This document shows positions 15,760 to 35,695 of a stretch of DNA of 48,848 nucleotides, piece after piece. Every line of letters begins with the position of its first letter. Within the stretch, counting starts at the first letter, position 1. The translations under genes and the position numbers were made by a program. The DNA comes from Gemmatimonadota bacterium (lineage in GTDB: Bacteria; Gemmatimonadota; Gemmatimonadetes; Longimicrobiales; Gaopeijiaceae), in assembly GCA_002718595.1 (NCBI GenBank), contig PBFD01000003.1, positions 109,924-158,771 of the forward strand. The letters run 5' to 3'. Under the pieces are notes generated by a model. It worked only from the letters and a program-made list of their open reading frames with translations, did not search any database and had not been told where the DNA came from.

Positions 15760-16989
15760 ATGCCACGAGCTTTATTAAAGCTAATAGTCCTCAGTTTTCT
15801 TCTAATCGGGATTCCTGGAAACTTAAGTTCTCAGACCTACTGGCCTGGAAGTCATCCGAACTGGGATAGAAGAGATCCAGCTGAACTGGGATTAAATCCA
15901 GCAAAAATCCAAGAAGCCGTCGAAGCTGCTGTTGCTGGAGAATCCAATTCCCCCAGAGACTTATCATTCAACCATCGCATGACTTTTGGGCGTGAGCCTT
16001 TTGGCGAACCGATTGGGCCTTTTACTACGAGAGCCCCTCAGACAGGCCTGATCGTCTACAAGGGGTATATTGTGGCTGAATGGGGAGACCCCATGAAAGT
16101 CGATAACACATTTAGTGTTTCTAAGAGTTTTCTTTCAACAACAGTTGGCTTGGCGTACGACAAGGGCATCATCTCAAGTGTTCACGACCTAGTCCGTCCC
16201 TATGTCGCACCAATCGTTTTGGACCATGGAGACGGCGAGCCCGGAGATCAAGATGGTAGAAGGGCTAAGTTGTTATTTGAATCTGAGCATAATCGCAAAA
16301 TCACTTGGGACCATCTATTACGCCAAACGAGTGATTGGGAAGGGACTCTTTGGGGTAAACCTGAATGGGCAGACAGACCTAGCGATGAACCTCTTTCATG
16401 GAAAAACCGTCCACGATTTGATCCGGGAACGGCTTATGAATACAACGATACACGTGTAAACCTTCTAGCTTTGGCCACCACTAGCGTATGGAGACGTCCT
16501 CTTCCGGAAGTTCTACGCGAACACGTGATGGACCCAATCGGTGCATCCCCCACATGGAGATGGCACGGTTATGATAATTCATGGATCACCTTGGATGGTC
16601 GTTCGGTACAAGCTGTAAGTGGCGGAGGCCACTGGGGTGGCGGCATGCTCTTGAGTGCATTTGATCAGGCTAGATTTGGCCTTCTAACCATGCACAAAGG
16701 CATGTGGAACGGTAAAAGTTTGATCTCTGAAGAGTGGATAGGAATGGCCAGTACACCTGGTGGAGTAAACCAGGGTTATGGATTTATGAATTTTTCACTC
16801 AACACTGATCGCGGTCGCTACAGTGAAGCCCCCGAATACACTTGGACTCATACAGGTGCGGGTTCTAATCTTATTTATGTTGATCCAGCAAATGAGTTGG
16901 TGATCGTAGCAAGATGGATCAGAGGCAGGGCCTTTACTGATGTAGTCCATGCAGTGCTAGACAGCATGGAAAATCCTGTCAGAAATTAA
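15760..16989 (+). CDS. Serine hydrolase, class C beta-lactamase/CubicO family, exported
   Basis: A penicillin-binding-protein-like serine hydrolase with a signal peptide (LLKLIVLSFLLIGIPGNLSSQ). In the 409-aa form, the nucleophile motif SVSK (S119, K122) is clear, YND occurs in the second-motif region (AYEYNDTRVN), and HTGAG near the C-terminus is the KTG equivalent. Members are peptidases, esterases or beta-lactamases, so a resistance role should not be assumed. GGAG lies 6 nt before ATG 15760, which is preferred over ATG 15721. Its stop overlaps that of the convergent selenoprotein gene in TTAA (16986-16989). Confidence 0.88.
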   Translation: MPRALLKLIVLSFLLIGIPGNLSSQTYWPGSHPNWDRRDPAELGLNPAKIQEAVEAAVAGESNSPRDLSFNHRMTFGREPFGEPIGPFTTRAPQTGLIVYKGYIVAEWGDPMKVDNTFSVSKSFLSTTVGLAYDKGIISSVHDLVRPYVAPIVLDHGDGEPGDQDGRRAKLLFESEHNRKITWDHLLRQTSDWEGTLWGKPEWADRPSDEPLSWKNRPRFDPGTAYEYNDTRVNLLALATTSVWRRPLPEVLREHVMDPIGASPTWRWHGYDNSWITLDGRSVQAVSGGGHWGGGMLLSAFDQARFGLLTMHKGMWNGKSLISEEWIGMASTPGGVNQGYGFMNFSLNTDRGRYSEAPEYTWTHTGAGSNLIYVDPANELVIVARWIRGRAFTDVVHAVLDSMENPVRN

Positions 16990-17594
16990 AGTCCGATTAA
17001 GGCTGCCAAAATATCTTCATTTTCAGGTCGGACACGATAGTCGATCTCAGTCATGTGCCACTGAATACGTCCAGACTTGTCAATGACATAGGTCGTTGGA
17101 TGAGGCATAGGTCGACCACCTGGACCAACCTGACTGAGAAGTCCGTAGCGTTTGATTACACTCCCATCAGGATCTGAAAGCAGAGAGTAGTCTATAACCA
17201 AACCTTCTCTCTCTGTAGCTATATGATCCACCATGGCCTGGAGATCGTCGGGATCGTCGGAAGAGACTGCAATTATCGCTGTGTTTTCTTTCTCGACAGT
17301 GGCCAATAAATCTGACAGCTCACCAAGCTGTTCCGCACAGTAGATTCACCATTTGCCCCTATAGAAAACTAGAACAACATTTTTACTTCCTCGGAATTCA
17401 GACAAAGTTATTGGCGGTTGATTCAACGCACTCAAAGTAAAATCGGGTGCTAAATGACCTGCTTGCACACGTTCTAAATCCAAACCAGACAAATCAAAGC
17501 CGTCTACTGGCCCTAAAACCATCTCGTCATTTTCAGACACACACCCGACCATGAAGCTCACCAAGGAGATCAGAAATTTTGAACTTCTTATCAT
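16986..17594 (-). CDS. Selenocysteine-containing peroxiredoxin-like lipoprotein (in-frame UGA = Sec83)
   Basis: A 202-aa redoxin of the AhpC/TSA (PRX-like) superfamily, interrupted only by TGA at 17346-17348, codon 83. Before it reads APDFTLSALNQPPITLSEF and VVLVFYRGKW. After it, in the same frame, reads IYCAEQLGELSDLLATVEK, followed by a normal C-terminal half including SDPDGSVIKRYGL and PTTYVIDKSGRIQW. Relatives have FYRGxWCPYC at this point, so UGA replaces the peroxidatic Cys and C86 is kept, giving UxxC. A bacterial-SECIS-like hairpin starts at the UGA, and a tRNA-Sec gene is present at 35194-35291. The N-terminus has a lipobox (MVGC), and GAGG lies 8 nt before ATG 17594. The predicted role is thiol-dependent reduction of peroxides at the envelope. 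The alternative is a one-base nonsense mutation; the intact flanks and exact position argue against it. Simple gene calling would split the gene at 17346. Confidence 0.85.
17307..17348 (-). promoter_or_regulatory. Candidate bacterial SECIS element immediately downstream of the UGA
   Basis: On the minus strand the UGA itself starts a 7-bp lower helix, UGAAUCU (17348-17342) with AGAUUUA (17313-17307), containing one G-U pair. An asymmetric internal loop of 10 nt against 1 nt follows. The upper helix is a perfect 6 bp, ACAGCU (17331-17326) with AGCUGU (17320-17315), capped by the 5-nt loop UGGUG (17325-17321). The apical loop begins 20 nt after the UGA and has G as its second base. Both fit the usual description of bSECIS elements (loop about 16-37 nt downstream, a G among the first two loop bases). 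The fold was worked out by eye. Confidence 0.65.
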
Positions 17595-18092: not shown

Positions 18093-18132
18093 GTCACTCC
18101 TCAGTAAGGCAAACATTAGCATTTTAATTGAA

Positions 18133-18206
18133 TCGGGGCGCCCGGATTCGAACCGGGGACCCCCTGCTCCCAAAGCAGGTGCGCTACCGGACTGCGCCAC
18201 GCCCCG
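18133..18206 (-). tRNA. tRNA-Pro (anticodon TGG)
   Basis: A complete 74-nt cloverleaf on the minus strand. The acceptor CGGGGCG pairs with CGCCCCG, followed by discriminator A. The anticodon stem is CTGCT/AGCAG (minus strand CCTGC/GCAGG) around the loop TTTGGGA, giving anticodon TGG at 18170-18172. The T-arm has GGTTCGAATCC. The 3' CCA is not encoded. It lies between the divergent hypothetical and multicopper oxidase genes, and reading frames crossing it on both strands are spurious. Confidence 0.97.
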
Positions 18207-18286
18207 TCCCATTCGTCCAACCGAATAGAAAACATCTCCAATTTAGCCAAGAAAATCTAGATGCTAATTTCCTTAGGTGGCATAAA

Positions 18287-20587
18287 ATGGATAGGTCAAA
18301 CTCTCTTGTCAGTGTTCCAAGTAATCGAATATCTTTATTCCGATCTAATCCTAGGGAGTCACAATTGAACAATGCCGAACAGTTGAGGGAATACGTTGGT
18401 CCTACACTCGCTTTTTTTACACTTGGAGTGCTAACCCTAAGCTCCCCAGTGCTGGCCACCTCTCAAACTCCCACATGTCCCCCTGCTCCAACCACATTCT
18501 CTAGTGTTCTTAATGCTCAAACAAGAGATCTTTCCACGGGGCTATTCTGCATAGATCTGATCCCCACCAACCGTGTTGGAGGGGCTAGTGGCAATATTCG
18601 CCTTGTCCGTCCTCAGTCACCTTTTGGAGTGGCAGTCACTGCTCAAGGACATCATAGAAACGAACTGCATTTTTCTATACAAGGACTTCCCGACCCAAGT
18701 TCACTAGGGGACTACAACACCTACATCGCCTGGATCTCTCCACTATCACTTTATCCAATAGAAAAATTGGGAACAATCACAAATGGACTGCATACGCTCG
18801 GAGAAGTATCCTTGAACAAGTACATAGTTCTGATCACGGCAGAGTCCTCAAACGCAGCCTCAGAGATGTCGGGGCCCATAGTACTTCGTGGCAGATCCCC
18901 TTCTAGCAAACTTGAAGCACACGACTTGCTGGCCATCGCGCCGGCAGCTGAAATCGGCGAGAGTATGGGAATGGAAAACATGGTGACAGACAACTGGTCT
19001 GCGCCCCCCATGTATCCAGGAATTCCGATGCTTCCTGGAGTTATGGGAGTGCGTCCGAGAACGACCCCTTACGAACTAACTCATGAAGGTGATTTTCCTA
19101 GGGTCGTCCCGCATAAGCTCGTGCAACTCCGTGACGGAGAGACCCTAGACCTTTTCGCTGGTATAGTGCGTAAAACGATTGATGGAAAAGACCTAACAAT
19201 GCTAGCCTTCAATGGACAGCACCCCGGACCCCTTATCCAAGTAAATCAGGAAAGTACTATTTTCGTCAACTTCACGAATAATACACCCTTCCCTAGCGCA
19301 GTCCATTGGCATGGAGTCAGACTCGACAATCAATTCGATGGCGTTCCCGGCATAACCCAAGATCCTGTAGCACCAGGCGCAACTTTCCGTTATCAAATCT
19401 ATTTTCAGGATGCTGGGATTTACTGGTATCACCCGCATCACCGGGAGGATATCCAACAGGAACTTGGACTGGCTGGGAATATCCTTGTCTCACCAGAGGC
19501 CCACAATTATTACAACCCCGTAGACCTAGAAGAAGTCTTGATGCTAGATGATTTTCTTCTTTCAGAAGACCAACCGGTTCCATTTGGTTTAGAAGTTTCG
19601 AACTATGCATTCATGGGACGCTTCGGGAACTTGTTGCTGGTAAATGGTGAGCCAACCTATGATTTGAAAGTGGACAAGAATCAGCTTGTAAGGTTCTTTT
19701 TCACAAATGCCGCCAATACTCGAACTTTTAATTTGTCTTTTGTTCAGAAAAACCGATCAGCCTCATCTTCCTCTAACCTGCCAGTAAAGGTGATCGCCTC
19801 GGATGTAAGTAAGTTCATGAAAGAAACAATGGTCACAAACATCACCCTCGCACCTGCTGAGCGGTATATCGTGGAAGTCCGATTCGATCAGCCCGGGGAG
19901 TACGCTCTTGTAAACCATGTACAAGGAATCAACCACAGAATGGGAGTTTTTGTAGAAGAAAACATAGAGATGGGAACGATATCCGTTTCTGAGTCTCCCA
20001 CAGAAAGTGACCACCATCAGACATTTGACCGGCTTAAAACCAACGAGGATGTAGTAGCTGATATTGAACAATACCGACCTTTGTTTGACCAACCAGTCCA
20101 GCATAACCTGACATTGACCCTTCAAATAGACAGCCTCGCTCCAGCAGTAGAACAGTCAATGCTATTTGATCGTGCTTACTTCAACCCAGTAGAGTGGGCT
20201 GGAACAATGCCAAGAATGAACTGGGCCACTGACGCTAATCAAATAGAGTGGACTCTCCGGGATGAAGATGCGGAACTTAGAAACATGGACATCACCTGGA
20301 GTTTCAAACTAGGAGATGTCGTAAAGATACGAATTCTCAATGATGCCAACGCTTTTCACGCTATGCAACACCCACTCCACATACATGGCCAGCGTTTCTT
20401 AGTTTTAGAACAAGATGGTATTACAAATGAAAACCTAGCTTGGAAAGATACTGTCTTATTGCCAACCGGTTCCACTACCGACATACTTTTAGAATTATCT
20501 AACCCAGGATACTGGATGGTTCACTGCCATATCGCTGAACATCTAGAATCAGGTATGAAATTTGTCTTTTACGTTGAAGAGGAATGA
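18287..20587 (+). CDS. Multicopper oxidase (laccase-like) with an extra N-terminal domain
   Basis: A 766-aa exported multicopper oxidase. The copper sites are visible: HWHG (H340, H342), YHPHHRED (H382, H384), HPLHIHG, and HCHIAEHLESGM (746-757), which contains the type 1 Cys747, H752 and axial Met757. These enzymes oxidise phenols or metal ions and reduce O2 to water. Cupredoxin domains occupy about 270-766. An unusual ~135-residue domain (about 70-210) comes first, with FCIDLIPTNRVGGASG, YIAWISPLSLYPIEKLGTI and KYIVLITAE, which looks beta-rich. A Met/Pro-rich linker (PPMYPGIPMLPGVMG) joins the two parts. The start at ATG 18287 has AGGTGG upstream; the longer frame from 18128 only translates the antisense of tRNA-Pro. 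One nucleotide separates it from the next gene. Confidence 0.92.
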   Translation: MDRSNSLVSVPSNRISLFRSNPRESQLNNAEQLREYVGPTLAFFTLGVLTLSSPVLATSQTPTCPPAPTTFSSVLNAQTRDLSTGLFCIDLIPTNRVGGASGNIRLVRPQSPFGVAVTAQGHHRNELHFSIQGLPDPSSLGDYNTYIAWISPLSLYPIEKLGTITNGLHTLGEVSLNKYIVLITAESSNAASEMSGPIVLRGRSPSSKLEAHDLLAIAPAAEIGESMGMENMVTDNWSAPPMYPGIPMLPGVMGVRPRTTPYELTHEGDFPRVVPHKLVQLRDGETLDLFAGIVRKTIDGKDLTMLAFNGQHPGPLIQVNQESTIFVNFTNNTPFPSAVHWHGVRLDNQFDGVPGITQDPVAPGATFRYQIYFQDAGIYWYHPHHREDIQQELGLAGNILVSPEAHNYYNPVDLEEVLMLDDFLLSEDQPVPFGLEVSNYAFMGRFGNLLLVNGEPTYDLKVDKNQLVRFFFTNAANTRTFNLSFVQKNRSASSSSNLPVKVIASDVSKFMKETMVTNITLAPAERYIVEVRFDQPGEYALVNHVQGINHRMGVFVEENIEMGTISVSESPTESDHHQTFDRLKTNEDVVADIEQYRPLFDQPVQHNLTLTLQIDSLAPAVEQSMLFDRAYFNPVEWAGTMPRMNWATDANQIEWTLRDEDAELRNMDITWSFKLGDVVKIRILNDANAFHAMQHPLHIHGQRFLVLEQDGITNENLAWKDTVLLPTGSTTDILLELSNPGYWMVHCHIAEHLESGMKFVFYVEEE

Positions 20588-22149: not shown

Positions 22150-22482
22150 TTAGGCATTCTCTGAAAAAGCAAAGGATGCCCCGGCCAGGCCCAAAGTAAA
22201 CAGAGGAATCGGCATCATGGCTTCGAAATTTGGTAGATGTACGGTAAGAAAAATCGCCATAAGCAAGGCACCCAAAAGTTTATAAGCTAGTTCAGTGTGT
22301 TTCCCTGCCAGTACCCCCAAGGCCCCAGCCAGAAAGCAGAGCCCCGTACCATAAGTCCAAAAGGCTGGGATTGGTAAGTAGCTCGGAACAAAGTTCATAA
22401 AACTTGCTTGCGTGAAATGCATCACTCCGAAGAACCAAAACGGAAGTGTATATAGAAATTTACCCACTCTGCCTAAAGACAT
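22150..22482 (-). CDS. DoxX-like small membrane protein
   Basis: A 110-aa protein with four predicted transmembrane helices. The first helix reads LYTLPFWFFGVMHFTQASFM, and the second pair begins IPAFWTYGTGLCFLAGALGVL. This matches the DoxX/DoxX-like family, whose members are small quinone- or redox-associated membrane proteins of mostly unknown role. The start is ATG 22482. The convergent neighbour is separated by a strong terminator. It is 60 nt downstream of the DUF971 gene on the same strand. Confidence 0.75.
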   Translation of the reverse strand: MSLGRVGKFLYTLPFWFFGVMHFTQASFMNFVPSYLPIPAFWTYGTGLCFLAGALGVLAGKHTELAYKLLGALLMAIFLTVHLPNFEAMMPIPLFTLGLAGASFAFSENA

Positions 22483-22542
22483 ATTCGGACTCCATTGAGA
22501 AATGACACATTGAAACTCTGTAAATCCTTCCAGAGATCATCT

Positions 22543-22869
22543 TCAGTTCGAACTACAGATATCACAGGAACACATGCTTCGCAATAGATCGAAAGAATAG
22601 ATACCTGTGTTATGGCCATCACTCCAACTGAATTGAATCGCATAATTACCTACATACTCTATGGACAACGGATAGATATTTTGGTGGACTTGCTCTTCAG
22701 AAAGGATTTTTTCTCCAGTAAACTCATCAACACACCCAGCACAAGGGCACGCAAGCCTCAGCTCTCTAGGAGAAAACACTGACTCGTGTTCCTTTGTCCA
22801 TTGAATTCTTAATGATAGTCCATCTTCCGTAGGTCCAATTTCGATCGGAACATTTATTTCAAACCACAT
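22543..22869 (-). CDS. DUF971 domain protein with two cysteine clusters
   Basis: A 108-aa protein of the DUF971 family, the fold also found at the N-terminus of gamma-butyrobetaine hydroxylase, where it binds zinc. The family pattern is clear: ESVFSPRELRLACPCAGCVDE in the middle and IQFSWSDGHNTGIYSFDLLR near the end. Cysteines occur as CPCAGC and CSCDIC, which may bind a metal or an Fe-S cluster. It overlaps the end of the rdgB gene by 11 nt, so it is translationally coupled to it. The stop is TGA and is followed one codon later by another TGA, so I do not read it as selenocysteine. Confidence 0.85.
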   Translation of the reverse strand: MWFEINVPIEIGPTEDGLSLRIQWTKEHESVFSPRELRLACPCAGCVDEFTGEKILSEEQVHQNIYPLSIEYVGNYAIQFSWSDGHNTGIYSFDLLRSMCSCDICSSN

Positions 22870-25178: not shown

Positions 25179-26882
25179 TTAAAGGAAAAGGACCAGATAG
25201 ACAGTTAAAAGTATAACAACCCACATGACCATACTACCAGCTGGTACCGCACGTGCCATTGGTCCTTTAGGGCCATGACCTCTTTCCGCTAGGCTCATAG
25301 AGCTGTTAACGACATTGAGTACGCTCGTTCTAATTTTTCTATCTATACTCCCTACCCTACTACCAATACTTCCTATTACACGTGGACCGAGCCAACGGTA
25401 AAACCATTCTACATCAATATTTATCGCTCTGATCTCAGGAGGATAGATACCCGACTTCATCATCCATACCACAGCCAAGGCACCGAAGAAAAGAAGCTGT
25501 AATTGGGTCACCACATGAGTGAGGTCGTAGGGATGATAATCAGCTTCAAAAGGAAGGATTGAATAAAGAAAATCGGGGAAAGTCCCTATCACTACGCATA
25601 AAGTAGCAGCTATTCCCATCGCCATTAACATATTTTTGGGTGGTTCTTTCACACGGATTCCTGAATCGTGTCCAAAAAATGCGAAATATGGGATCTTAAT
25701 TCCTGCGTGTTCAAGGACTCCAGCAGAAGCAAACACCAAAAACGGCCATACCCAGTTATAGCCCTGCTCTAAGGCAGCAGCCATAACCATGGATTTGGTG
25801 ATAAATGCGCTAAACAAAGGAAATGCTGAAATTGCCATTGCCCCGACGATACAAAGACCAGTTGTGATGGGCATCGTCTTATAAAGACCACCCAGGTCGG
25901 AGCCATTGATTCTTCCAGTCATTTGGAGGACTGACCCCATAGTCATAAACAATAATCCTTTAAAAATTACATCCGCAAAAGCATGAGCCACAGCTCCATT
26001 TAGTGCGAGTGCAGTTCCTATGCCAACACCAGTGACCATAAATCCCATCTGGTTTATCATGCTGTAACTGAGAACTCTTCGGAGATCATTCTCAATAACA
26101 GCAAAAAAGATTGGGAAAAAGGTCATTAAAACACCCACGTAAATGAGAGCTTCGGTTCCAGCGAAACTTCGGACAAGGGCAAAAATAGCAACCTTTGTGG
26201 TAAAAGAACTCAAAAAGACGGTTCCAGTTGGAGTCCCTTCGGGATAGGCATCCGTGAGCCAACTATGGAAGAATGGAAATGCAGCCTTTATTCCAAACGC
26301 CACGAGTATGATTATACCAGCAGCCGATCCGTCCAAGCCAATATGGTCAAAACCTATGGATCCAGTATTGTGCGCCCTAAGCAAAGCGCCAGAGAGTAGA
26401 AGAACACCCGACAAAACATGGATGACTAGGTATCTAAATCCTGCATTGAAAGAACTTTCCGTTCCTCTGGCAAAAATAAGAAATGCTGAGCTCAATGCCA
26501 GAATTTCCCAGAAGACAAAAAGAGAAATCAGATCTCCAGCATAGACTGCACCTATAGCACTGCCCGCATATATGAGGGCCGAGGTATGTTGCAATCCTGC
26601 GTGTTCCCTATCCTCCAAATGAAGAGCAAAAAGATTGCCTAGAAATGATGCTAGATGAAAAAGATACCCAAACAACATGCTCAGGCCCGTAACTTTGAAC
26701 GGGACCAAGTCATAACCCATAAAGCTCAGGGTCAAACTTGCATCGGGATCCAGGCTCCGTAGGTTTAAAGCTCCAAGAATTGGAATCAATAGCATTAAAC
26801 TACTACGCAATCGGCCACGTGTTATTGCGACCAGAACTGCCCCTGCGAAGAAAATAGCTGCGGGAGGGTAACTAGAGATCAT
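25179..26882 (-). CDS. Mrp-like antiporter membrane subunit, third MrpD homologue
   Basis: A 567-aa polytopic proton-conducting transporter subunit (Proton_antipo_M family, related to MrpD and NuoL/M/N). The conserved charged residues of the ion path are visible: E126 in FVFWEILALSS, K199 in AFGIKAAFPFFHSWL and K230 in SSFTTKVAIFAL. It carries a C-terminal tail of about 100 residues with YPPEIRAINIDVEWFYRWLGPR, also seen, as I recall, in D-like subunits of proteobacterial Mrp-like operons. It is the last gene of the ten-gene operon and overlaps the preceding small gene by 11 nt. It probably couples cation export to proton entry at the inner membrane. Confidence 0.9.
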   Translation of the reverse strand: MISSYPPAAIFFAGAVLVAITRGRLRSSLMLLIPILGALNLRSLDPDASLTLSFMGYDLVPFKVTGLSMLFGYLFHLASFLGNLFALHLEDREHAGLQHTSALIYAGSAIGAVYAGDLISLFVFWEILALSSAFLIFARGTESSFNAGFRYLVIHVLSGVLLLSGALLRAHNTGSIGFDHIGLDGSAAGIIILVAFGIKAAFPFFHSWLTDAYPEGTPTGTVFLSSFTTKVAIFALVRSFAGTEALIYVGVLMTFFPIFFAVIENDLRRVLSYSMINQMGFMVTGVGIGTALALNGAVAHAFADVIFKGLLFMTMGSVLQMTGRINGSDLGGLYKTMPITTGLCIVGAMAISAFPLFSAFITKSMVMAAALEQGYNWVWPFLVFASAGVLEHAGIKIPYFAFFGHDSGIRVKEPPKNMLMAMGIAATLCVVIGTFPDFLYSILPFEADYHPYDLTHVVTQLQLLFFGALAVVWMMKSGIYPPEIRAINIDVEWFYRWLGPRVIGSIGSRVGSIDRKIRTSVLNVVNSSMSLAERGHGPKGPMARAVPAGSMVMWVVILLTVYLVLFL

Positions 26883-27159
26883 AATAGTCCTCCCGACGCA
26901 TTAAAAGCTTCCTCATTACCTTTGCTATCAGCACAAGCAAAACAATCCCACCGAAAGCGTAAACAGGATAGAAACCCAACAAACCTTCGAGTGAGTGGTA
27001 TTCATGCCTATGCTCTTTAAAAACCAAGTTGGTCAATTGCATGTCTAGTTCTACGAGCAACAAAATTGCACATCCAAAATAAAAAACCTTAAAAAGTTGA
27101 TTGGTTCGCTTCGGCTTCATATCGTCCTTTTCAACATTCCGATGCCCTAAATCGCTCAT
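26872..27159 (-). CDS. Small two-helix membrane protein of the Mrp-like operon
   Basis: A 95-aa protein with two hydrophobic helices (VFYFGCAILLLVELDMQL and GFYPVYAFGGIVLLVLIAKVM), separated by a His/Glu-rich loop (KEHRHEYHSLEG) and ending in LLMRREDYYDL. I recall similar unnamed proteins between D-like subunits in proteobacterial Mrp-like operons. It is tied to both neighbours by overlaps (4 nt upstream, 11 nt downstream), which argues that it is a structural or assembly subunit. No enzymatic motif is seen. Confidence 0.75.
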   Translation of the reverse strand: MSDLGHRNVEKDDMKPKRTNQLFKVFYFGCAILLLVELDMQLTNLVFKEHRHEYHSLEGLLGFYPVYAFGGIVLLVLIAKVMRKLLMRREDYYDL

Positions 27160-28619
27160 GATCCAAACACCATTTTCATCATTTCATAAAGGAAATCAGG
27201 GAATAAAAACAAACCAAGAGTGAGCCCGCTTGAGACTCCCATTGCTACCAAGCAAGGCCAAGGCGCTTCTTTCACTCCTGTCTCTTGCTCAACCCCACTG
27301 GGTGAACTAAAGAAGGCTCGGACTGGAACCTCTAATAGATAAACCAAACTTAATAAGGAACTCAACATAAGGACCGCCAACAATCCTTGTTCGTTTGCCT
27401 CAAGTGTGCCCAAACCTAGGAACCATTTGCTCCATGCCCCTCCAGCTGGAGGAACCCCAATGATACTCAGTGAACCTACGAAGAAAGCACCAAATGTTAG
27501 CGGCATCTTTCGGCCTAAGCCTCTCATGTCGCTGATGTCTGTCTTATGAGCGGCTACTAGTATGGCACCCGCTGCAAAAAACAAGGTTATTTTCCCAAAA
27601 GCATGCATAGCTATGTGCATGCCCCCACCTATAATAGCAAATTCATTTGCCAAGAGAGCCGCCAAAACGATATAAGAAAGCTGACTTATAGTAGAGTAGG
27701 CCAACCTGGCTTTTAGGTTGTCTTTGGTGAAGGCCACTAGAGACCCTAGTATGATAGTCACAGCCGCAATCCACCTTAGCCATGGTGTACTTGCTAGCTC
27801 AGACAAGGTACTTAGCCCAAAGGTATAGATTGCCACTTTTAGAATTGTAAAAACACCGACTTTAACTACTGCCACAGCGTGTAGCAAAGCTGAAACTGGT
27901 GTAGGTGCAACCATCGCAGCTGGAAGCCACCTGTGGAATGGCATCACCGCAGCCTTCCCTACTCCAAAGACAAACAGTGCAATCAGTATGCTCAATACAC
28001 TATTGGAAGCGGTCCCTCCTAAAATTCCTCCAGGTCTGAAATCTAAGGTGCCAGTTAAATTCCAAGTCCATATTATTGCTAACAGTTGTAAACCTACTGA
28101 TGTCGACAGCAGGATCCCTAGATATACCCTTCCAGCCCTCTTTGCTTCTGGCGTGCCGTGATGAGTTACCAGAGGGAAAGTACACAATGTCAACAGTTCA
28201 TAAAATGCGAATAGCGTGAAAAGATTAGCCGAAAAGGAAACCCCCATCGCTCCACCAATAGCAATGGCAAAACATGCAAAAAATCGGGTCTGGTTCTTCT
28301 CATGGTGTCCCCTCATATAACCTACGGCATAAAGTCCGGTCACTATCCAGAGGAAAGACGCTACAAGGGCGAATAACAAGCCCAAAGGTTCAACATTCAA
28401 TGCCAAAGAAATTCCCGTCGTGACTTCTAGCAAGGTAACCTCATGGAGAGAACCTTGTCTGAGCGGTTCTATCAGTTGGTACACGCTTGCACAAAGTATA
28501 GTAGCGACGACAAAGCTTATACTGTCACGTAGGTTGGGGTACTTCCCCGTGAGCAATATTAAACCAGCACCCATGAAAGGAATGCTCACTATCATGCATA
28601 GCATGAGAGGGTAGCTCAT
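27156..28619 (-). CDS. Mrp-like antiporter membrane subunit, second MrpD homologue
   Basis: A 487-aa subunit of the same Proton_antipo_M family with about 13-14 helices. Conserved ion-path residues are E141 in FAFYELLTLC, K222 in FGVGKAAVMPFHRWLPAAM, and K253 in AVAVVKVGVF. The sequence is as close in style to NuoM/MbhH as to MrpD, so it may stand in for part of the missing MrpA. ATGA overlaps of 4 nt join it to both neighbours, a sign of translational coupling. Confidence 0.9.
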   Translation of the reverse strand: MSYPLMLCMIVSIPFMGAGLILLTGKYPNLRDSISFVVATILCASVYQLIEPLRQGSLHEVTLLEVTTGISLALNVEPLGLLFALVASFLWIVTGLYAVGYMRGHHEKNQTRFFACFAIAIGGAMGVSFSANLFTLFAFYELLTLCTFPLVTHHGTPEAKRAGRVYLGILLSTSVGLQLLAIIWTWNLTGTLDFRPGGILGGTASNSVLSILIALFVFGVGKAAVMPFHRWLPAAMVAPTPVSALLHAVAVVKVGVFTILKVAIYTFGLSTLSELASTPWLRWIAAVTIILGSLVAFTKDNLKARLAYSTISQLSYIVLAALLANEFAIIGGGMHIAMHAFGKITLFFAAGAILVAAHKTDISDMRGLGRKMPLTFGAFFVGSLSIIGVPPAGGAWSKWFLGLGTLEANEQGLLAVLMLSSLLSLVYLLEVPVRAFFSSPSGVEQETGVKEAPWPCLVAMGVSSGLTLGLFLFPDFLYEMMKMVFGS

Positions 28620-30100
28620 GATCCAATCCCCATCAGGTTAGCTACAGCAGACGATGCGCCAAATGTCGTCAATGTAGCATCAATTCCAAAATAGACACAC
28701 AAAATGGCTAAAGTCCAAGTCGGAATCAGAAGACCTATAGGAGCTTCAGAACAGTCGCTATTCACTGAACCAGGATCTTCAGAGAAATACACGGTTTCTA
28801 CAACTTTCCAGATATATACCACAGCCATTAGGGAGGTTAGTAACACCAGCACTGCAACAGGCCAAAGCCCCTTCTCTAGGGCTCCTTGAATCAGGTACCA
28901 TTTACTTATGAATCCTGCTGTAAAAGGAACTCCAATTAATCCAAATCCTCCAACAAGGAAGGCACCCATTGTAAGTGGCATTTTCTTTCCCAAGCCCATC
29001 ATATCATCAAGCTCTACCGAGTTAAGCCGATACATCACGCATCCCAGAGCCATGAAGAGACAACCCTTGATAACAGCATGATTAAAAAGATGTAAAATAC
29101 TCGCGGTCATTCCCGTGCTTGAGAAAAGGCTGATCCCTAAAATGATATAACCTATTTGGGCCAAGCTAGAGTACGCCAACATTCTTTTGACGTTAGCCTG
29201 GAAAATAGCAACCAAAGACATACTGAATATGGCTATCAAAGATAGTGGCAATAGATAAGTTCCCAGCTGCATTTCCAGAAAGGAATAATCAGATCCAAAA
29301 ACAGTATAGAAAAGTCGCAAAAGAACATAGATTGCCACCTTGGTCGCTGTGGATGCTATAAAGGCTGTAACAGCCGAAGGTGCAAAGGTATATGCGTTAG
29401 GCAACCACATATGTAGGGGGAAAAGAGCTAACTTCAGACAGACTCCCACTGTTAGAAACGCAAAAGCGACTGGTATCGTTCTATTCGAGGAAAGCTCTGG
29501 CAAAAGGATAGCTAAATTTGCCATATTCAGACTGCCAGTCATCACATACAGCATGCCAATTCCAATGACTATAAAAGTGGCACCCACACTGCCCATAATT
29601 AAGTACTGATAGGAAGCTCTCAAGGCCCTCCTATCTTTTCCCAGGGCTATGAGCGCATAAGCAGACAACGACGAGATTTCGAGGAAGACAAATACGTTGA
29701 ACATATCACCTGTTACGACAATGCCTAACAAACCAGCTAGACAAAGCAGAAAAGCAGCATAAAAAAGAGCTTGTTTAGATTTATCTACTTCTTTTCCGAC
29801 ACTCTCCAGTGCATACGGAGTGACGACTGCTCCTACGAGTGTGACTACCATTAGGACAAAAGTTCCTAATGTGTCGATTCTATATTCGATACCTCCCTCT
29901 GAGGCAGACCAACCACCCAGGCTATAAGATATAGCACCAGTAGAGTGCACGACCTGGAATATCTCCCAAGCTATCCAAAACGCCGCCCAACTACTTGCTA
30001 CCGCAATACCCCAAGCCACCCGGCCATTTCTGACGAGGGCGCACAAGGGAGCTGCGAGCAAAGGCACCATTACCTGCATTACCGGTAAATGAGCCATCAT
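28616..30100 (-). CDS. mrpD: Na+/H+ antiporter subunit D (MrpD/MnhD)
   Basis: The most canonical MrpD of the three: 494 aa, directly after mrpC as in classical mrp operons. Ion-path residues are E141 in VFVFLEISSLSAYAL, K223 in GVCLKLALFPLHMWLPNAY and K254 in STATKVAIYVLLR. YSSLAQIGYIILG and the later LGKKMPLTMGAFLVGGFGLIG are typical of the family. It forms the proton/cation path of the complex in the inner membrane. It overlaps mrpC and the next D-like gene by 4 nt each. Confidence 0.92.
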   Translation of the reverse strand: MMAHLPVMQVMVPLLAAPLCALVRNGRVAWGIAVASSWAAFWIAWEIFQVVHSTGAISYSLGGWSASEGGIEYRIDTLGTFVLMVVTLVGAVVTPYALESVGKEVDKSKQALFYAAFLLCLAGLLGIVVTGDMFNVFVFLEISSLSAYALIALGKDRRALRASYQYLIMGSVGATFIVIGIGMLYVMTGSLNMANLAILLPELSSNRTIPVAFAFLTVGVCLKLALFPLHMWLPNAYTFAPSAVTAFIASTATKVAIYVLLRLFYTVFGSDYSFLEMQLGTYLLPLSLIAIFSMSLVAIFQANVKRMLAYSSLAQIGYIILGISLFSSTGMTASILHLFNHAVIKGCLFMALGCVMYRLNSVELDDMMGLGKKMPLTMGAFLVGGFGLIGVPFTAGFISKWYLIQGALEKGLWPVAVLVLLTSLMAVVYIWKVVETVYFSEDPGSVNSDCSEAPIGLLIPTWTLAILCVYFGIDATLTTFGASSAVANLMGIGS

Positions 30101-33842: not shown

Positions 33843-34607
33843 ATGTATAACAAACCTATCTATTTGACCAGTGATGTTCACCTGGGTGCTCTCAATAATG
33901 ATGACGAATCCTCTTTTCTCAACTGGATAAATTGGGCGAGCACCAACGCTGCTCAAATCATAATTAACGGCGACCTATTCGATTTTTGGTTTGAATTCCG
34001 CACTGGGATCCCTCCTGGCTACCAGAATTCACTCTCCGTTTTAAAAGCAGTAATACAAAATGGAGTTCCAGTCACTCTGCTGGGCGGCAATCACGATTGG
34101 TGGGCTGGGAGGTATCTGCAGGAAGAGGTGGGGATTTCCTTTGAACCAGATCCATTACTATTAAACCTGGCTGGCTACAAAGTCTTCATGGCCCACGGAG
34201 ATGGCTTAGGACATGGGACAAAAGTCTATAAATTAGTCAGATATTTCTTGCGCTCCCGAGTTTTGACGAGTCTTTTTTCGCTACTTGACCCTAATTGGGG
34301 ATCGTGGATTGGAGCCAAAGTATCACGAACTAAACAGAAAAGACTTCAACCTTCTTCACTGGAACATCACCAATCGGAAAATCTCAAAAAATGGGCACTC
34401 AACAAACTGAAGGAAGAACCCAATTACGACCTAATCGTTCTTGGGCACACCCACATTCCGTGGATAGAAAGAATAAAGAACAATCGCTACTACATTAACA
34501 CTGGTGATTGGTTACACAACCGAACATTTGCAATCCTAAATCAGGGAGAGCAACCCTCTTTGTATTACTGGAAAAATGGCCGACCTTCGCCTTATCTACC
34601 TGAATAG
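33843..34607 (+). CDS. lpxH: UDP-2,3-diacylglucosamine diphosphatase (LpxH family)
   Basis: A calcineurin-like metallophosphoesterase of lipid A synthesis that makes lipid X from UDP-2,3-diacylglucosamine at the inner membrane. Metal-binding motifs are SDVHLG (D11, H13), NGDLFDFW (D44), GGNHD (N83, H84), MAHGD and LGHTHIPW. The context of LptE- and LolB-like genes just across the divergent promoter supports an outer-membrane role. The first ATG (33843) gives the usual beta strand IYLTSDVHLG. The stop overlaps the convergent DUF5683-like gene by 12 nt. Confidence 0.85.
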   Translation: MYNKPIYLTSDVHLGALNNDDESSFLNWINWASTNAAQIIINGDLFDFWFEFRTGIPPGYQNSLSVLKAVIQNGVPVTLLGGNHDWWAGRYLQEEVGISFEPDPLLLNLAGYKVFMAHGDGLGHGTKVYKLVRYFLRSRVLTSLFSLLDPNWGSWIGAKVSRTKQKRLQPSSLEHHQSENLKKWALNKLKEEPNYDLIVLGHTHIPWIERIKNNRYYINTGDWLHNRTFAILNQGEQPSLYYWKNGRPSPYLPE

Positions 34608-35168
34608 ATTCACAGGCAGACTTAAACCCAATCCAACACCTGACTCTGGACTAACCTCGAGATTGGCTTCAAGCGCTTCCGGAAAATCCTGTAAATGAGC
34701 TGTCACAAAAGCATCTGCAGCACCAAAGAGTAGAAAGAATATACTGACAGCCATCCAGTCTTCTCGCTGCTGTGATCGATTTTCAACCAAAGTAGAAGCC
34801 TCACTTACACCCTTATATTCCTTAACTGCTTGATCCAAAGCGGATCCCTGCAAACCTTGACTCATTGCGAGCTCTACTCTGGCACCGTCCTCCAATGTTT
34901 TTAGTTGGCTCCTAGCACTACTTAAATTCCTGGCAGTCTTCAATACCATCCATATACTTGCCCCTTCTACTCCAAAATAGAAAGCCCCCCGACCCGGCGA
35001 ACCAGCTGCTGATTGACCCCAACCTGGAACTATGAGCGATCTAATAAAAGCACCGGTCGCCGACACTCTATCCGGCTGGGAATCTAAAGACTGCCCAGAC
35101 ATTATAGTCTCTGAGACTACTCCAGACCTTAAACTTTGACCTGACAAACTTGCTGGAATTATAGTCAT
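34596..35168 (-). CDS. DUF5683-like membrane protein, uncharacterised
   Basis: About 190 aa. The core FIRSLIVPGWGQSAAGSPGRGAFYFGVEGASIW is the pattern of DUF5683-like proteins, which have a PGWGQ turn and a hydrophobic helix. A second helix (MAVSIFFLLFGAADAFVTAHL) comes near the end. The frame continues upstream straight through the tRNA-Sec gene, and that part is spurious. ATG 35168 is the first ATG after the tRNA, but the residues before it (FIICFCLY) would complete a signal peptide, so a non-AUG start (ATT or ATC) just downstream of the tRNA is possible. The function is unknown. Confidence 0.6.
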   Translation of the reverse strand: MTIIPASLSGQSLRSGVVSETIMSGQSLDSQPDRVSATGAFIRSLIVPGWGQSAAGSPGRGAFYFGVEGASIWMVLKTARNLSSARSQLKTLEDGARVELAMSQGLQGSALDQAVKEYKGVSEASTLVENRSQQREDWMAVSIFFLLFGAADAFVTAHLQDFPEALEANLEVSPESGVGLGLSLPVNLFR

Positions 35169-35193
35169 ATAAAGGCAAAAACAAATGATAAAA

Positions 35194-35291
35194 TGGCGGG
35201 AACGTGTGGGAATCGAACCCACCAACCGAGGGTTTAGCTCGGCAAGCTGGTTTTGAAGACCAGTGGGGCCACCAGACCGCCATCCGCTCCC
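35194..35291 (-). tRNA. selC: tRNA-Sec (selC), anticodon TCA
   Basis: A 98-nt tRNA on the minus strand that delivers selenocysteine to UGA codons. The acceptor GGGAGCGG faces ACGTTCCC (seven pairs with one G-U, the eighth a G-A mismatch), then discriminator G and an encoded CCA. The anticodon arm CTGGT/ACCAG closes the loop CTTCAAA, the same loop as in E. coli selC, with TCA at 35254-35256. A long variable arm has the stem CCGAG/CTCGG. The T-arm is GTGGG TTCGATT CCCAC. The long variable arm, extended acceptor and UCA anticodon exclude an ordinary Ser or suppressor tRNA. It lies between ridA and the DUF5683-like gene. No selA, selB or selD gene is in this window. Confidence 0.96.
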
Positions 35292-35311
35292 TTTCCTGTT
35301 TTGAGATATAG

Positions 35312-35695
35312 TCACCCTATGACAGCGATAGCATCAATCTCAATAGAAATTCCTTCTGGAAGGCCTACTTCAACCGTAGCCCTTGCTGGTCTGTGTCCTT
35401 CGAATGATTCGGCATACACTTTGTTCATTTCCTGAAACAAATTCAAGTCTGCGAGATAAACTGTTGTCTTGACCACCTTGTTCAAAGAACTACCAGAAGC
35501 TTCTAACACGCCCGAGACATTTTTTATCACCTGTGCAGTCTGACTTTCTATCCCACCGTCGACCATACTGCCAGTATTGGGATCAATTGGAATTTGACCC
35601 GACACGAAAATGAGATCTCCCATCTGTATTCCTTGGGAATATGGTCCTATTGCACCCGGAGCTTTCGATGTTTCTATCGATTTCAAAATTGCCAT
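35312..35695 (-). CDS. ridA: RidA family enamine/imine deaminase
   Basis: A 127-aa cytoplasmic RidA (YjgF) protein that hydrolyses 2-aminoacrylate and related reactive imines released by PLP enzymes. Conserved features are APGAIGPYSQGIQ, LIFVSGQIPIDPNTG, KTTVYLADLNLFQEMNKVY and the active-site arginine in RPARATVEV. It lies 50 nt downstream of a fold-III PLP enzyme, a fitting neighbour, and 20 nt upstream of tRNA-Sec. It is the normal single-domain form, unlike the exported triple-domain protein at 14431. Confidence 0.95.
   Translation of the reverse strand: MAILKSIETSKAPGAIGPYSQGIQMGDLIFVSGQIPIDPNTGSMVDGGIESQTAQVIKNVSGVLEASGSSLNKVVKTTVYLADLNLFQEMNKVYAESFEGHRPARATVEVGLPEGISIEIDAIAVIG

Follow-up and report, generated by a model that had tools for sequence, protein, structure and literature searches.

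An in-frame UGA very probably read as selenocysteine in an exported peroxiredoxin-fold protein of Gemmatimonadota

Can a gene whose reading frame is interrupted by a stop codon encode a full-length enzyme? The locus lies in a stretch of 48,848 nucleotides of Gemmatimonadota DNA (the window), in a host genome of 2.0 Mb that is 94% complete. An earlier note, made from the letters of the window, proposed that the codon specifies selenocysteine (Sec). This proposal is borne out: relatives conserve the TGA, the host genome has the full Sec machinery, a SECIS hairpin is conserved, and one lineage that lacks the machinery carries Cys and serves as a natural control. On this comparative evidence, we put at about 0.95 the probability that the UGA is read as Sec and that the gene encodes a genuine selenoprotein. 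The two central features are as follows.

16986..17594, minus strand: predicted selenoprotein gene, AhpC/TSA (Prx-like) fold; 202 aa with Sec at codon 83, ending in TAA
17346..17348, minus strand: in-frame TGA, predicted Sec83 of a UxxC motif with Cys86; 93 distinct homologous genes have TGA in this column

A conserved TGA within one reading frame

The minus strand from 17594 to 16986 translates into 202 residues, interrupted only by a TGA at codon 83 (17348–17346) as the note had described, and ends in TAA; standard ORF calling reproduced exactly the split into 17346–17594 and 16986–17306 that it had foreseen. By eye, the ATG is preceded at 8 nt by a Shine-Dalgarno-like AGAGG. The joined protein, in which the local motif reads FYRGKWUIYC, matched PF00578 (AhpC-TSA) at 4.8e-30 (104.5 bits against a cut-off of 26) over residues 46–179; the match spans the TGA. 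No NCBIfam model reached its own cut-off for the joined protein (best, 48 bits), which therefore lacks a curated family name. The nearest named relatives are metagenome-assembled Longimicrobiales/Gemmatimonadota genomes (L043, 68% identity).

Searching genome contigs with the single protein yielded no confirmed relatives, presumably because the query was one divergent sequence with the Sec column read as TGY. A homologue search of genome contigs using an alignment with the Sec column masked returned 391 relatives. A close orthologue was found in 50 of 146 relatives searched, each with exactly one in-frame TGA. Loci from 30 of these 50 carriers, together with 80 further named loci, made up a set of 110 best loci from Gemmatimonadota, Acidobacteriota, Myxococcota and one contig labelled Proteobacteria. 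All 110 have TGA at the same column and none has the Cys form there. As some loci represent the same genome obtained through two collections, the set reduces to 93 distinct gene sequences, mostly from Gemmatimonadota; the check for homologues with TGA at this column thus returned TGA in every distinct gene. The family motif around the TGA is FYRGHWUPYCAxQLGEL. F77, Y78, R79, G80, W82, C86, Q89 and L90 are invariant in an alignment of 30 sequences, and Cys86, the retention of which had been claimed, is invariant in an alignment of 24 sequences as well.

Two loci call for separate comment. L133 (G305:C308) is a second copy beside a normal one, in which the TGA is kept and Ser replaces Cys86 (UxxS). 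L130 (G311:C73:206462-207001) showed a TAG besides the TGA in the genome search; the fetched frame has only the TGA before its stop, and the TAG is probably the natural stop within the aligned span.

A lone sequence of this kind would look just like an ordinary Cys gene that had been pseudogenized by a nonsense mutation or misread at one codon during assembly, and TGC versions do exist in the same class. However, many genomes and assemblies contribute to the 93 distinct genes that share the TGA, and purifying selection continues downstream of it. In seven of seven gene pairs spanning the divergence range, dN was much lower than dS on either side of the TGA (downstream, dN 0.22 and dS 1.9 for the window compared with a same-genus relative), which rules out a decaying 3′ half. 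Conservation already refutes mutation or assembly error, to which we give next to no weight.

A downstream hairpin and the selenocysteine machinery

Immediately past the codon, the message can form a hairpin.

17315..17331, minus strand: bacterial SECIS (bSECIS) hairpin ACAGCU-UGGUG-AGCUGU; 7 bp and a GGU triloop, or 6 bp and a 5-nt loop

The hairpin begins 14 nt past the UGA, and its apical loop lies 20–21 nt from it. The published bSECIS model has a stem of 4–16 bp, a loop of 3–9 nt with G in the first two positions, a distance of 16–37 nt from the UGA and a minimum free energy of −7.5 kcal/mol or lower (PMC13188914). The window hairpin agrees with this model in its stem of 6–7 bp, its loop GGU (or UGGUG) and its spacing of 20–21 nt; the predicted energy is −9.6 kcal/mol for the region of UGA plus hairpin and −6.8 for the 17-nt hairpin alone. 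By itself, this structure does not stand out (z between 0.15 and −0.65): of the TGA sites in the window, 2.9% have a model-like hairpin of equal stability. No known RNA family was found over the gene with Rfam at gathering or relaxed thresholds.

Across the family, CAGCT-N5-AGCTG starts exactly 15 nt past the TGA in 110 of 110 loci, and the CAGCU/AGCUG core is invariant in all 93 distinct genes. The stem overlaps codons for Q-L-(G/V)-(E/K/Q)-L. Synonymous codons are available, and the amino acids alone do not force the stem sequence: CAA, TTR, GAA and other codons for the second Leu are never used at the stem columns, and in the window's own genes CAG accounts for 38% of Gln, GAG for 32% of Glu and CTG for 16% of Leu. 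Of 88 codon columns, the five with the strongest codon conservation include columns 5, 7, 10 and 11 after the TGA; the fifth, column 38, is explained by small-sample effects at a nearly invariant Met. Just outside the stem lies a further base pair: T-A in 49 genes, G-C in 32 and A-T in 1 (the window). It is formed in 82 of 93 genes, whereas independent columns would give 43. This covariation is not independent of descent, and its three independent contrasts on the tree (two concordant, none discordant, one neutral) are too few changes for significance alone.

Bacterial Sec insertion generally competes with termination, and the hairpin also scores as terminator-like. Both points would suit a UGA that acts mainly as a regulatory brake, the usual product being an exported peptide of 82 residues and Sec read-through being rare. 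The short form would lack most of the redox fold, however, and selection downstream of the TGA is as strong as upstream, which makes such a brake very improbable.

The window also carries the gene for the tRNA that reading UGA as Sec requires.

35194..35291, minus strand: selC, tRNA-Sec, anticodon UCA; found by ARAGORN and by Rfam RF01852 (65.2 bits, gathering 47)

An ORF called at 34596-35315 overlaps selC; for this reason its start is probably misplaced, or else the ORF is spurious.

In the host genome, selA (515.6 bits, cut-off 267.9), selB (328.5 bits, cut-off 242) and selD (370.1 bits, cut-off 125) were all detected. SelD itself has one in-frame TGA at the catalytic HGAGUAC (L039 1531-1533, G000:C7), so that the host has at least one other predicted selenoprotein. 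Carriage of the orthologue goes with the machinery: selA was present in 48 of 50 carriers versus 51 of 96 non-carriers (Fisher p = 2e-8), and the two carriers without selA, both of which have selB, are assemblies that are 85% and 76% complete. The frame would be open under any sense reading of UGA, including insertion of another amino acid such as Trp through a variant code or a suppressor tRNA. Against this, tRNA-Sec and the full Sec machinery are present, TGA serves as the true stop of many same-family homologues, and the UGA, where it has been replaced, always becomes Cys TGC; we regard the chance of such a reading as negligible. For selenocysteine, the comparative evidence suggests that SelB bound to Sec-tRNA-Sec would recognize the hairpin just past the UGA and insert the residue at position 83 instead of allowing termination.

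Export, fold and active site of the predicted protein

The N-terminus of the protein carries the last feature needed here.

17541..17594, minus strand: export signal with lipobox-like MVGC, Cys18 being the predicted lipid anchor (from sequence)

A hydrophobic N-terminal segment is present in 94 of 95 family members, which upholds the export that had been claimed. The lipobox claimed with it fared less evenly. MVGC (residues 15–18) is plausible and lipobox-like, with M at −3, and a same-genus relative has GLGC; yet only 27 other members share a lipobox-like motif with the window protein (28 of 95 in all), the remainder having a signal-peptide-like or membrane-anchor-like N-terminus. The contrast between 94 and 28 of 95 members therefore suggests that export is the conserved feature, whereas lipid anchoring would be lineage-specific.

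An AlphaFold (AF2) model built with 30 homologues reached a pLDDT of 84.6. Its top match in the PDB was AhpE of M. tuberculosis (1xvw; Foldseek E 6e-12), with a TM score of 0.64 by query length and 0.80 by target and 32% identity; other peroxiredoxins also matched. In this alignment, read with the catalytic residues of AhpE (Pro, Thr, the peroxidatic Cys and Arg116), Sec83 corresponds to Thr, Cys86 to the peroxidatic Cys, Arg79 to Pro and Pro166, which sits in an invariant PHP motif, to Arg116. The earlier note had placed the TGA at the position of the peroxidatic Cys, and this has to be corrected: the codon aligns with the Thr of the Prx TxxC, and it is Cys86 that occupies the peroxidatic position. 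Only that Cys is kept from the canonical peroxiredoxin PxxxT/SxxC and catalytic Arg, the window protein having R79, U83, C86 and P166 at these sites. Because the Prx Pro and Arg are missing too, we predict a thioredoxin-like active site made up of UxxC, with the invariant PHP motif further on.

The likeness to AhpE, a 1-Cys peroxiredoxin, and the alignment of Cys86 with its peroxidatic residue would fit a genuine 1-Cys or 2-Cys peroxiredoxin in which Cys86 is peroxidatic and Sec83 only tunes or resolves. We consider this unlikely, although it deserves some weight, given that PxxxTxxC and the catalytic Arg are replaced (Arg79, Sec83 and Pro166 stand instead) and that position 83 is kept as Sec despite its special decoding and as a thiol in the Cys lineage; such retention fits the attacking residue of a thioredoxin-like CxxC.

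Under the preferred, thioredoxin-like reading, the product would be exported, probably lipid-anchored at Cys18 in the window species, and would work in the cell envelope as a redox enzyme with a peroxiredoxin fold. The Sec83 selenolate would attack a peroxide or an oxidized thiol substrate, Cys86 would close a Sec83–Cys86 selenenylsulfide, and a reductant would then restore the enzyme. We infer this as the most economical chemistry because the protein has three Sec or Cys residues in all, Sec83, Cys86 and Cys18; with Cys18 set aside as the putative lipid anchor, the UxxC pair alone is left for redox work. Gene context suggests no partner, since no neighbour is widely conserved (the largest neighbour family occurs in 19 of 81 loci).

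By domain and motif, the predicted protein belongs to the known 'Prx-like thiol:disulfide oxidoreductase' selenoproteins, a subfamily defined by pfam00578 and UxxC/UxxU (PMC9312934; PMC13188914). Sec-containing Prx-like UxxC proteins were described from the Sargasso Sea in 2005 (PMC1088965) and from Geobacter and others in 2006 (PMC1794560), and with these it shares PF00578, a Sec that is first in a thioredoxin-like UxxC, and a bSECIS immediately downstream. Prx-like 1 of the 2008 GOS survey comprised 225 Sec forms and 2,740 Cys homologues (PMC2398784), whereas the window branch is exported, centred on Gemmatimonadota and very rarely in the Cys form. AhpE shares the overall fold, but its motif is TxxC, not UxxC, and it has the catalytic Pro, Thr and Arg of peroxiredoxins, which the window protein lacks. 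Sec-containing peroxiredoxin (TxxU, PrxU; NF040737) belongs to the same superfamily and likewise has active-site selenium, but its Sec is the peroxidatic residue and that of the window lies three residues upstream (38.9 bits against a cut-off of 270). The SelL-related redox proteins (NF040769; 47.2 against 120) and the ResA-like WAxxUGC proteins (NF041054; 18.5 against 300) are related Trx-fold redox proteins with different motifs. Gemmatimonadota are not mentioned in two reviews (PMC9312934 and PMC13188914), and, among the papers listed by a literature search on selenoproteins and Gemmatimonads, no account of the branch is apparent from titles and abstracts. With this locus, Gemmatimonadota gain a branch of exported selenoproteins that is well supported and the genes of which standard gene callers split in two.

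A cysteine-coding genus and other features of the window

A family-profile search of 395 Gemmatimonadota genomes gave 86 matches, of which 82 have TGA, one is partial and covers only sequence past the Sec column, and three contain no stop. The stop-free genes (L125, L126 and L127, in genomes G169, G189 and G334) come from one genus and have TGC at the Sec column. In these three genomes selA is absent and no selB exceeds the cut-off; Rfam matches to tRNA-Sec over threshold in two of them proved on inspection to be tRNA-Ser. Two of the three are single contigs, with sizes of 4.72 and 5.18 Mb. By contrast, the same-family TGA genomes G218 and G240 both have selA and selB. The branch is therefore almost always selenium-dependent, and Cys occurs only in one genus without selenium machinery. 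TGC relatives lacking selA and selB, which the earlier note had named as a sign of mutation or artefact, do exist in these three genomes, but the pattern points away from mutation, as Cys was found only where the machinery is absent.

The SECIS hairpin is gone in the Cys genes. L127 still encodes QLGEL, as CAA CTC GGT GAG CTT, and hence lost the stem by synonymous changes. In the tree, the Cys genes form one supported clade nested within the Sec genes, and the Cys form is likely to derive from the Sec form in this genus; we say likely, short of proof, because the outgroup branch is long. The outgroup consists of two plasmid TGC 'peroxiredoxin-like' proteins. A tblastn search of plasmids returned 107 records, all below 60% identity, and the two inspected were 34% and 33% identical, with TGC; no homologue was found in viral contigs. 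On balance, we lean towards a branch that was ancestrally a Sec-dependent, exported redox family, in which one genus of the same class would have switched from Sec to Cys and lost the Sec trait, its SECIS decaying partly by synonymous change. Sec-to-Cys switches in bacteria are called rare in a 2026 review and are documented mainly for FdhA and SelD (PMC13188914), which makes this genus worth following. Because one bacterial class offers matching orthologues with Sec and with Cys, two of the Cys genomes being single contigs, the benefit of selenium to the enzyme and the route of Sec loss can be tested directly.

Other features of the window were noted in passing. A second selenoprotein candidate, a two-TGA frame at 22150-22869 (minus strand), was rejected, as it appears to be a tandem pair of ordinary ORFs in which TGA acts as a normal stop; the first of the pair has a weak match to the N-terminal region of a gamma-butyrobetaine dioxygenase model. 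A multicopper oxidase is encoded at 18128-20587 (plus strand), and its called start overlaps tRNA-Pro (18133-18206). Its copper-oxidase domains start only at about residue 350, which points to a long extension of the N-terminus or else to a misassigned start. Last, a cluster of three Proton_antipo_M subunits at 25179-30100 (minus strand) is probably an Mrp-type Na+/H+ antiporter operon.
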